Below are positions 44,351 through 54,468 of a stretch of 63,378 nucleotides of DNA, piece by piece. The notes under the pieces were generated by a model that was given only the letters and a program-made list of their open reading frames with translations, searched no databases and was not told the DNA's origin. Position numbers and translations under genes: made by a program. This stretch comes from Syncephalis fuscata (Eukaryota; Zoopagomycota; Zoopagomycetes; Zoopagales; Piptocephalidaceae), in NCBI GenBank assembly GCA_025786725.1, contig JAHLTZ010000068.1:1-63378 (forward strand), given 5' to 3'. Each line of letters starts with the position of its first letter. Position 1 is the stretch's first letter.

Positions 44351-45440
44351 ATAAAGCTTTCTATTGCCATCATCTGCATCATTATTATACCGTTTATAGC
44401 CACTACAGTCATTGCGAATGCTAAGTCAGTTTCCAATCCGTTGCAATATGTTTCAATCAAAATAGATATTCCAACTGTTATATTCACTAACAATAGATTG
44501 GATTAATGATGCTACTAGATTGTAAGCTTCAATTATGAATTGTTGTTACAATAATTGGTACATCCTCATACATACGATAAATGTAATAAATACGTAAACA
44601 AATGGTAAGTTTGTTATAAACTAATAAAGCAAATATTGTATTTACAATACTAATATGATAAGCTAATATTAATAACAGGCAAGTAGTATTGTATGATGAT
44701 TAGCACTTTAGTTAAATATATTTTATTTATTAAACTAAAAAGAATAAAGTGTAAGCATTATTGTATATTAATCAATTATGCGCTCATTGCATGTAATTTA
44801 TTGTGCATCAGCAACTTGGTAGCAATAGGCTGCAAGTGATGCTGTAGGTTAAGTAGCTATGAGCTAATTACACGAAATGTACTGTGTGTATCGAAATATT
44901 AGTGCTAATATGTGGTGTCACTGTATAATGGTTTGTCAACGGTATTATATGTCAATTAGTTATACACTGATTAGATTATGTGTAATGTGCTTATCAATAA
45001 CTTCATATTTATAGCCGATAACTAGCATCTTATATTGATTGACTATGCGCTAATTGAACGCTTACTATGTACTTCAACAAATTAATACTAACAGAAAATA
45101 GGGGATACTACATACCAATTAACTATACACTTATTAGATAATCTGTACTGTATGTATCAACTGCTTGCTAGTAATAAACGGTAAGTGATATAGTATATCA
45201 ATTAGCTGTATACTAGCTATATACTATGTGTTGCGTGCATCAGCATTTTGCCATTAATAGATGTTAGGTGGCATTTAGTATTGATATTTTATACATTAAC
45301 TATATAGCATGTTTTGTATTTGCTTATAGACATGGAATAGCTAGTACATTCAAGATGTTGGCATTGGCAGTATAATTAAACTACTAGTTCAATATACTTT
45401 AAACATATATTCTGTGGGGAACAAGACCATCCTACAGCCG
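44351..45440 (+). pseudogene. Decayed paralogue of the micro-exon secreted-peptide gene
   Basis: Homologous along its length to the intact gene at 53080-54468 (-). The first exon (44351-44445) reads xKLSIAIICIIIIPFIATT then VIANA…NPL, matching MKLFIAVVC…FVATTAM…DANPTL, but the start codon is ATA. Intron 1 aligns base by base, with its donor changed from GTATGT to ATATGT. A TAG-ATT-GTAAGC micro-exon remains at 44519-44521. Further degenerate 80-bp units run to about 45290, with 3-nt gaps GCT, CCG, GGG and ATG beside partly destroyed donors. The terminal exon homologue starts at 45388 after CTACTAG, and similarity continues past the stop position. Loss of start and splice sites makes this a pseudogene, and the homology shows that the architecture is inherited. 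Confidence 0.75.
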
Positions 45441-50219: not shown

Positions 50220-50635
50220 ATTATATGACGGTGTAAGACGGCGTAAGACGGTATAAGACGGCGTACCGCTGCGTACCGCTCCGTACCGCGGCGTACCGCT
50301 CCATAAGACGGTGTAAGAAGGTATAAGACGGCGTAAGACGGCGTAAGGCGGTGTAAGGCGGTATAAGACGGTGTAAGACGGTGTAAGGCGGTATAAGACG
50401 GCGTACCGCTCCGTACCGCGGCGTACCGCTCCATAAGACGGTATAAGAAGGCGTAAGACGGCGTAAGACGGTATAAGACGGCGTAAGCGGTGTAAGACGG
50501 TATAAGACGGTATAAGACGGCGTACCGCTGCGTACCGCTCCATACCGCTCCATACCGCTCCGTACCGCTCCATAAGACGGTATAAGCCGGTGTAAGGCGG
50601 TGTAAGGCGGTATAAGAAAGTATATATCACTATAC
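50220..50635. repeat. GC-rich minisatellite of 10-bp units
   Basis: About 40 tandem units alternate between two sub-types, GTAAGACGGY-like and GTACCGCTCC-like, with variants such as TATAAGACGG. All three minus frames stay open because the units lack stops. They read as the same Tyr/Leu/Pro/Arg-rich decapeptides (RLTPSYTVLY), which is a translation artefact of a 10-bp period. The array is a GC-rich island inside AT-rich DNA. It lies exactly between two head-to-head TIR ends and is followed by TATACCAC-type AT repeats to about 50720. Confidence 0.9.
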
Positions 50636-50744
50636 ACCACTATACCACTATATATCACTATATACCACTATATACCATATATACCATTATATACCATTAT
50701 ATACCATTATATATCACATTATAGCTTTTTTTAACTAAAATCGT

Positions 50745-53079: not shown

Positions 53080-54468
53080 TTATCGAATGGCCTTGCTTTT
53101 TGCCCAATATATACCTAAAGTTTGTTGAACTAGCAATTTGATTAGATTACCAATGCTAATGCCTTGAAAGTGTTGGTTATTTTATGTTTATAAGCAGATA
53201 TAACACATATCACATGATTAATATATAATTGGTTAATATACAACGCCACTTACAACCTATTAACACGAGTTATTAGACACACACAGTGCGTGTCATACAA
53301 TTAATATATATTTGGTTAATTAAAATTTTACTTACAGCCTATTATATAGGTCATTAGATGCACACAATGCATAGTATATGGTTAGTATATACCTAGCTAA
53401 TATACAATACCACTTATGACCTATTAATACAAGTTATTAAACACACAATGTATATGGTATACACTCAATATACAAATATTTAATATTCAATGCCACTTAC
53501 GACCTATTCATATGAGTTATTAGACACGCGATGTGTGTCATATGATTAACATATAGTTAGTTAAATTAATAAAAATCACTTACAAACTATTATATAGATT
53601 ATTAGGCACACACGATGTGCGGTATATGATTAGTATGTGGTTAGCTAATATGCAATGCCACTTACGAGCTATTATATAGGTCATTAGACACACACAATGC
53701 GCGGTATATGATTAGTATCTAGTTAACTACTATCCAATGTCACTTACGTCCTATCAACACAAGTTATCAAACACACAACATATATAATATATGCTTAGTA
53801 TATAGTTAGTTGATATACAATATTACTTACGACCTATTAATATGAGTTATTAGGCACACGGTGCGTGTCATATGATTAATATATAGTTGGTTGATTAAAA
53901 AATTACTTACAAGCTATTATATAGGTCATTAGACACAAGCGATGCGAGGCATATGATTAGTATATAGTTGGCTGATATAAAATGCCACTTACTAGCTAGC
54001 AAAGCCAATTTAGCAGCATAAACATTGTTTAGTTAACTAAAAACTAGTTAATGTTATTGCAATATACCTCCTATTAATATAGATTTGGTATATTAGCATT
54101 CTGAATGTGGCTTTTATTTATTGTTTTATGTTAAACGTACTCTTAGCTAATAATTCTATATTTATTTATTTTAATTAATGAGCAATGGTTAGCCAAAACA
54201 TCAATAATCATGTATGCTCAAAACTTACGGGCTATTTACGTGTGTTATAGCATTTATTATGTGTATAACAACATATAGTGAGTACCAAAACAATCATCCA
54301 TCATCACAACTTACCACCTAGTACCATTGTTAGTTAAACATAACACTTGAATATTTATTGTGATTGCAACATACCACGACGGGCTAGAGTTGGATTAGCA
54401 TCTACCATGGCTGTAGTGGCCACAAAAGCCATGATAATGGTGCAAACGACGGCAATAAAAAGCTTCAT
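53080..54468 (-). CDS. Secreted Cys/Arg-rich peptide built from an array of 3-nt micro-exons
   Basis: Exon 1 (54468-54375) encodes a signal peptide (MKLFIAVVCTIIMAFVATTA) and NPTLARR, ending in phase 1. Thirteen candidate 3-nt exons follow, each placed TAG|NNN|GTAAGT (or GTATAT, once ATAAGT). They are 54317-15 GTG, 54231-29 CCC, 54070-68 GAG, 53995-93 CTA, 53913-11 CTT, 53833-31 GTC, 53750-48 GAC, 53668-66 CTC, 53586-84 TTT, 53503-01 GTC, 53420-18 GTC, 53338-36 GCT and 53256-54 GTT. The final exon is 53129-53080. Introns are 57-158 nt, mostly 77-80. Spliced, they give 61 codons including the stop; the array encodes GARATCRPLCRRC, after a possible Kex2 site (ARR). The micro-exon bases are 56% GC (22 of 39) in strongly AT-rich introns. 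All exons are phase 1, so any subset remains in frame. Function is unknown. The alternative is one long intron with a minisatellite, leaving only the two end exons. Confidence 0.6.
53254..53995 (-). repeat. Tandem array of intron-plus-codon units (80-83 bp period)
   Basis: Ten micro-exon sites at intervals of 82, 80, 83, 82, 82, 83, 83, 82 and 82 bp. Each unit starts GTAAGT (one ATAAGT), usually has a TAYTAA or TTAATC branch-like block in the middle, and ends in CTAATRAC…AATAG-like sequence. Three unit sub-types by 3' end follow each other roughly as A-B-C, A, A-B-C, A-B, which suggests past duplication of three-unit blocks. The sequence just inside each intron is nearly invariant, while the three bases between introns vary (CTA, CTT, GTC, GAC, CTC, TTT, GCT, GTT). 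Confidence 0.85.

Follow-up and report, generated by a model that had tools for sequence, protein, structure and literature searches.

Genes with many very small exons have been described in animals, and the micro-exon genes (MEGs) of schistosomes and the bicycle genes of aphids are the nearest in kind to the gene reported here, which by analogy would work alike. The body text of one paper gives the exons of schistosome MEGs as 6-81 bp long, mostly 15 bp, with 10-20 exons per gene and introns of 0.1-5 kb, whereas its abstract gives 3-81 bp (PMC10526429). The bicycle genes are described as fast-diverging genes for putative effectors, with many small internal exons that are nearly all in the same phase (PMC9168663). 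We studied a stretch of 63,378 nucleotides (nt) from Syncephalis fuscata (contig JAHLTZ010000068.1 of assembly GCA_025786725.1), the whole of which is called the window below. Over its first part (336 aa), the glucose-6-phosphate dehydrogenase ORF of the window shares 90% identity with Syncephalis plumigaleata and 86% with S. pseudoplumigaleata. A gene on the minus strand of the window very probably encodes a small secreted peptide rich in arginine and cysteine by way of a series of one-codon exons, spliced stepwise. Its structure, its joined reading frame, its homology to uninterrupted paralogues and the unit-sized insertions and deletions (indels) among its relatives support this reading. 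An earlier inspection of the letters of the window (hereafter, the original prediction) had proposed such a gene, in a fungus, and had set the lower limit of schistosome micro-exons at 6 nt. The fungal host was correct; the limit agrees with the body text cited above but differs from the abstract of the same paper.

Like the MEGs of Schistosoma mansoni as described in PMC10526429, the S. fuscata genes have many tiny exons, mostly multiples of three, that elude automatic annotation; MEG products are secreted, and those of the S. fuscata family are predicted to be. Unlike MEGs, they belong to a fungus, nearly all of their internal exons are 3 nt long and their introns measure about 78 nt and are tandemly related. 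With the bicycle genes they share small internal exons in one phase, beginning at codon position 2; bicycle genes, however, are insect genes, and one-codon exons are not part of their description in PMC9168663. A profile search with 14 family members against 5.8 billion proteins (E <= 1) gave 14 matches, all from S. fuscata, with no schistosome or insect protein among them, although neither MEG nor bicycle proteins were compared directly.

Recursive splicing in Drosophila, as described in PMC8605326, is similar in that a donor is regenerated at or near each new junction and the removal is stepwise, but at the Drosophila ratchet points acceptor and donor are juxtaposed and no codon is kept, whereas the S. 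fuscata arrays would keep one per step. A spliced 3-bp exon is reported for Drosophila homothorax (PMC7392893), where it is single and lies in a transcription-factor gene, in contrast to the series found here. Among fungi, Xlr2 of Trichoderma virens has a functional micro-exon, but this is a single one of 20 nt, again in a transcription factor, and the 2024 paper that reports it calls functional microexons previously undescribed in filamentous fungi (PMC11121469). The original prediction held the serial one-codon design to be undescribed; among the matches listed in the open-licence literature we found no description of serial 3-nt exons or of fungal micro-exon gene families.

Structure of the window gene

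All thirteen predicted triplets were confirmed on the minus strand, from 54317-54315 to 53256-53254, each preceded by TAG (Table 1). Their positions and the two variant donors, GTATAT and ATAAGT (one each), were as predicted, and GTAAGT follows eleven triplets, not ten. Across the whole window there are 11 copies of TAG-N3-GTAAGT, every one within this array; other spacers of 1-15 nt in the same motif occur at most twice each on either strand. Exon 1 (94 nt), the triplets (39 nt) and the last exon (50 nt) were recomputed to give 183 nt, that is, the 60 residues plus stop originally proposed, and a manual count of the GC content of the triplets gave 22/39, matching the earlier figure of 56%. 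Introns are mostly 75-80 nt long, both here and in the arrays of other loci, where those of 55-90 nt were counted.

The exon set probably needs two corrections. A 6-nt exon, CTAAGA, was probably missed: it would sit inside the supposed 158-nt intron between the exons CCC and GAG, and its inclusion creates a second dibasic site, ...LARRGAPKRATCRPLCRRC... The product would then have 62 amino acids, MKLFIAVVCTIIMAFVATTAMVDANPTLARR-GAPKR-ATCRPLCRRC-FQQTLGIYWAKSKAIR, and the micro-exons (thirteen of 3 nt and the probable one of 6 nt) would account for 45 of 189 coding nt, between exons of 94 and 50 nt. The second correction concerns the GTC exon at 53420-53418, which is probably skipped because its donor has an A at position +1 in the window gene and in the near-identical loci L029, L030 and L031. 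All thirteen triplets together do spell the CRPLCRRC that had been predicted after a dibasic site; with this exon skipped the frame is kept and the peptide would probably read CRPLCRC. Judged by eye, the exon-1 peptide starts with a hydrophobic signal that is followed by RR, the last-exon peptide QTLGIYWAKSKAIR resembles QHTLGIYSVKKQDH, the C-terminal end of the intronless paralogue L043, and the KR of GAPKR parallels APLAKR in the uninterrupted L038.

Table 1 Features of the micro-exon gene and of its decayed copy in the window (splice sites given as acceptor / donor)
Feature	Position	Strand	Remarks
Exon 1, signal peptide and RR site	54375..54468	-	MKLFIAVVCTIIMAFVATTAMVDANPTLARR and base 1 of the following codon; ends in phase 1; GTATGT donor
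One-codon exon GTG	54315..54317	-	TAG / GTAAGT
One-codon exon CCC	54229..54231	-	TAG / GTAAGT
Probable two-codon exon CTAAGA	54141..54146	-	Acceptor TTAG, donor GTACGT; introns of 82 and 70 nt; site identical in L029-L033; adds KR (GAPKR)
One-codon exon GAG	54068..54070	-	TAG / GTATAT; identical in four aligned paralogues
One-codon exon CTA	53993..53995	-	TAG / GTAAGT
One-codon exon CTT	53911..53913	-	TAG / GTAAGT
One-codon exon GTC	53831..53833	-	TAG / GTAAGT
One-codon exon GAC	53748..53750	-	TAG / GTAAGT
One-codon exon CTC	53666..53668	-	TAG / GTAAGT
One-codon exon TTT	53584..53586	-	TAG / GTAAGT
One-codon exon GTC	53501..53503	-	TAG / GTAAGT
One-codon exon GTC, probably not recognised	53418..53420	-	Donor ATAAGT in window, L029, L030 and L031; GTAAGT in aligned unit of L032 and L033
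One-codon exon GCT	53336..53338	-	TAG / GTAAGT
One-codon exon GTT	53254..53256	-	TAG / GTAAGT
Last exon and stop	53080..53129	-	Peptide FQQTLGIYWAKSKAIR; by eye like end of intronless L043
Ten tandemly related introns	53187..53992	-	Nine introns of 77-80 nt, then part of the final 124-nt one; 10 nhmmer intron-profile matches; TRF period about 83
Decayed copy of same gene type	44351..45440	+	By eye, no start codon in exon-1 remnant; remnants of six intron units (44751-45260) and of last exon

Reading frame of the joined triplets

Joined in phase 1, the phase left by exon 1, the triplets of 17 loci (16 distinct arrays, 464 triplets) gave no stop among 432 codons, whereas shuffling the order of the triplets within arrays, which keeps the triplet composition of each array, produced a mean of 24.0 stops and a minimum of 12 in 2,000 trials. 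The alternative joined frame contained 45 stops in 432 codons and the triplets read singly contained 2 in 464. This test omitted the near-duplicates L010, L012, L015 and L025; as L018 and L019 overlap within a single gene, L019 was read only up to the overlap, one triplet being counted twice.

A second test was limited to exons with the strict motif, in 26 loci. It gave no stops in 342 codons, against a shuffled mean of 12.1 and a minimum of 2 in 5,000 shuffles, and cysteine codons were enriched (39 versus 25.4 after shuffling, a number reached by 2 of the 5,000 shuffles). Duplicates and overlaps (L010, L012, L015, L019, L025, L029, L030, L033, L048, L050 and L051) were omitted here, as were L036-L039 and L043-L046. 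The set retained L031, a near-identical copy of the window gene. As for the choice of loci, L009-L028 were drawn from the first 100 of 236 matches and hence were picked for arrays, and L029-L045 were picked for close exon-1 similarity or long open frames.

Spacing and number of micro-exons in the genome

The 3-nt spacing is a feature of the whole genome. AATAG-N3-GTAAGT was found 3,183 times, versus 54 times with N4 and 38 with N6, and the reversed-pattern controls gave 28 (N3), 50 (N4) and 19 (N6). In 20 array loci, two of them overlapping, the 3-nt spacer occurred 498 times; the next commonest among spacers of 0-39 nt was that of 6 nt, with 8, and directly abutting TAG and GTAAGT were seen once. 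Similarly, 15 sampled exon-1 loci had spacers of 3 nt 191 times, of 6 nt nine times and of other lengths between 0 and 15 nt three times. Of 287 micro-exons defined by looser criteria in 12 loci, the strict motif caught 194. The S. fuscata genome may accordingly contain some 4,700 three-nucleotide exons, a rough estimate in which duplicated loci are counted.

A longer acceptor with a relaxed donor, TTAG-N_L-G[TC]A[AC]GT, occurred near the arrays 22 times with L = 3, 22 times with L = 6, once with L = 9 and never at the other lengths from 1 to 12, near-identical loci being counted separately. Since the distance from TTAG to the donor is thus 3, 6 or 9 nt, the 6-nt exons would form a second, codon-sized class. 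The longest series, in the gene model of L019, has up to 53 three-nucleotide exons. By eye, the peptide of this model (L019/L018, C2:650.5-665 kb) looks like an amphipathic coiled coil and not like a cysteine-rich peptide; its Pfam matches were weak and under the cut-offs. A diverged relative, L046 (C242:94000-96500, minus strand), has a series of candidate 6-nt, that is, two-codon exons, and a stop interrupts its exon-1-like frame.

The signal-exon family and its uninterrupted members

The signal peptide encoded by exon 1 (MKLxIAVVCT...VDAxPxxxRR) matched at least 150 places in the genome with E <= 1.7e-6 and no stops inside the match; this is a lower bound because 150 of 313 candidates were scored. 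Every tenth of the 150 scored sites was taken and counted by hand. Twelve of the 15 sites in this sample were followed by an array (5-22 AG-N3-GTAAGY motifs within 2.3 kb) and the other three (L055, L062 and L064) by an uninterrupted open reading frame (ORF) containing cysteine codons. The family thus has members in which the body of the peptide is written in plain DNA, and these can be compared with the peptides spelled by the arrays.

The clearest case is L021, whose one-codon exons spell GDTCKCQDEDGNCTSC (core CKCQDEDGNCTSC). In plain DNA, the uninterrupted L036 and L045 read GACKCRDDDGYCTSC (core CKCRDDDGYCTSC) and L044 reads DSCECRNFEGYCASC. Local alignment of the L021 body scored 69 with L036, 69 with L045 and 53 with L044, and in each comparison the score was attained by none of 2,000 triplet-order shuffles and none of 2,000 residue shuffles. 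Among 408 body pairs, nine had scores that none of 500 shuffles reached, versus about one expected by chance: L021 with L036, L045 and L044, L059 with L062 and P0123, and four pairs of lower similarity.

The uninterrupted genes may have been copied from spliced mRNA, and would then record the splicing. Should they instead be older than the array genes, introns would have been gained at intervals of exactly one codon. Under either origin the triplets would be joined. What had been proposed as a serial one-codon gene for a secreted peptide holds as to its design, which agrees with the joined frame, the intronless homologues, the end exons that recur at other loci, the conserved splice sites and the decayed copy (see below), and would belong not to a single gene but to a family.

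Pfam comparison of 10 proteins put L064 alone above the cut-off, with SVWC (PF15430, 30.2 bits, cut-off 27). In this uninterrupted ORF (C90:405026, plus strand) the family signal peptide stands before the SVWC-like domain. Bodies of the pattern CxxxC...CxxxC might be read as helical hairpins. An AlphaFold2 model, made for the uninterrupted P0123, has three short helices in the body, with a mean pLDDT of 66 and body blocks of 74-80. This model is not used as evidence here.

Proposed splicing, evolution and function

The transcript would begin with an exon whose signal peptide ends in RR, continue with micro-exons, thirteen of 3 nt and one of 6 nt, and close with a short last exon. All introns would be in phase 1, each 3-nt exon completing one codon (bases 2 and 3) and opening the next (base 1). 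Because the introns are short, about 78 nt, and their GTAAGT and TAG ends are nearly fixed, they are probably recognised singly, by intron definition. Three nucleotides can hardly hold two splice complexes, and for this reason the introns probably leave one after another: every splicing event would add one codon, with the next donor then 3 nt behind the junction, and the mRNA would be assembled in a manner akin to recursive splicing, with one codon kept per step.

Tandem duplication of an intron together with its codon would yield related introns, exact spacing and uniform phase, and later change of the triplets would yield varied peptides. The family would thus expand or contract as entire units of intron plus codon are duplicated or lost, at one amino acid each and without a frameshift. 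In agreement with this, indels between paralogues include some of 79 and 82 nt, that is, one unit and one residue, and a single 3-nt exon separates the gene models of L011 and L012.

The product would be secreted and probably cleaved at both dibasic sites, RR and KR. According to PMC10386755, Zoopagomycotina parasitise microinvertebrates as well as fungi, the latter mainly Mucoromycota, and a title cited in the same paper calls Syncephalis a ubiquitous mycoparasite genus. Given this life style, the signal peptide, the dibasic sites and the many cysteines, we infer that the peptides may act as secreted effectors against the host fungus, their probable targets being the fungi that Syncephalis parasitises.

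Alternative explanations

Schistosome MEGs produce isoforms by exon skipping. Skipping of single micro-exons may likewise give many peptide variants per S. fuscata gene, a tentative suggestion that would add to stepwise one-codon splicing. Nearly all micro-exons are whole codons and the joined frame is in phase 1 throughout, so that skips would stay in frame, and one exon in the window has an altered donor; the uniform phase, however, is also expected from tandem duplication alone.

It is unlikely that the genes were once spliced in this way but are now mostly pseudogenes or unexpressed, with the uninterrupted paralogues, found at three of the 15 sampled sites, being copies of spliced mRNA that took over the function. 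Decay does occur: exon 1 has frame breaks in L046 and L031 (by eye), and a decayed copy lies in the window about 8 kb from the gene. This copy is 69-80% identical to the gene in three blastn stretches and its intron units are still recognisable, yet it has no [TC]AG-N3-GTAAGT motif, versus 11 in the gene, and keeps a single relaxed site, TAG-GCT-GCAAGT. It is a natural negative control. General decay does not agree with the arrays with intact motifs found after 12 of the 15 sampled exon-1 sites, nor with the pattern of substitution among paralogues. In eight pooled pairs, substitutions amounted to 1/600 in acceptors, 7/1,200 in donors and 11/752 in exon 1, versus 593/15,927 in introns and 37/600 in triplets. 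With so few changes in acceptors and donors relative to introns and triplets, the splice sites are strongly conserved while their surroundings drift. Note that eight of nine pairs were pooled, that some pairs may be haplotypes instead of paralogues, and that motif positions were taken from a single member per pair, a choice that may slightly favour conservation. The excess of triplet over intron changes hints at diversifying selection, but we do not claim it because a single pair, L047/L048, which has unit shifts, contributes 19 of the 37.

Introners are mobile introns of which the same family occurs across many unrelated genes. That such introns entered singly a gene that at first had no interruptions is very unlikely here. 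The intron units are related across loci (nhmmer) and uninterrupted paralogues exist, both as expected from introners, but insertions would have been needed at exactly every third base, and some differences between paralogues are whole units, as from tandem duplication. Moreover, an intron profile made from 120 of 341 array introns and scanned against the 63-kb window matched the gene and its decayed copy only, in 16 of 16 matches.

Least probable of all is the view that the array is satellite-like, a tandem repeat lying within a single long intron, with TAG and GTAAGT as decoys or binding sites and the end exons joined directly: the units are plainly tandem repeats, and exons that are multiples of 3 nt could all be skipped with the frame intact, but a satellite predicts no stop-free joined frame, no homology between the spelled peptide and its uninterrupted paralogues and no variable triplets between nearly invariant splice sites, and we rejected it on the order shuffles and the homology.

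Several observations weigh against one-codon splicing of these genes. Among the 13 window donors one is ATAAGT, some units look dead or require variant splice sites, and a few motifs have another spacing, for example 2 nt (5 times, versus 498 for 3 nt, in the 20 array loci). The L021 body showed no significant similarity to L038 and L043, whose scores were reached by 159 and 55 of 2,000 shuffles, respectively. Public annotation departs from the arrays: 14 annotated family proteins were found, versus at least 150 signal exons, and the annotated P0127, which corresponds to L021, diverges by eye from the spliced model near the start of the array. Automatic gene models vary between runs and sometimes skip exons or use exons of 2 or 7 nt. 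Eight further loci contained one stop in 74 codons versus 2.8 expected, too few for significance alone. They were what remained of the 15 sampled sites after exclusion of L047, L017 and L019, already used, of L054, a duplicate of L053, and of L055, L062 and L064, which have no array. The lone stop, in L060, is near the end of its array and may be the true end of the peptide. Loosely defined chains had stops in two of 34 loci, L060 and L063; that of L063 vanishes once a 6-nt exon is included by hand.

Implications

Dozens of 3-nt exons in series in one gene, each hardly able to hold two splice complexes, would, if confirmed by RNA, be an extreme case in which to study the pairing of introns and the order of their removal, as well as a natural system in which protein length shifts by exactly one residue per duplication. 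The contrast between 14 annotated proteins and at least 150 signal exons suggests that a secreted arsenal of this mycoparasite is nearly invisible to gene finders. A broader view, which we offer with reserve, is that S. fuscata has a peptide repertoire written codon by codon, in several thousand one-codon exons behind at least 150 signal exons, from which codons are gained, lost and skipped as units. If so, each gene could give a combinatorial set of in-frame peptides, and new effectors could evolve by the addition of single amino acids, each with its own intron.

Other observations

Inverted pairs of copies on one contig were seen at C1:475325/534399, C1:575k/610k, C2:520k/540k, C57:160k/190k and C278:118686/120334. 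A near-identical copy of the window gene lies on contig C268 (62,535 bp), which is similar in size to the window contig (C265) and carries the copy at almost the same coordinate; the two contigs may be alternative haplotypes, or C268 may duplicate C265. Elsewhere in the window, a cluster of 10-bp minisatellites (GACGGCGTAA and others) at 50227-50717 overlaps a repeat-encoded ORF of 157 amino acids on the minus strand.
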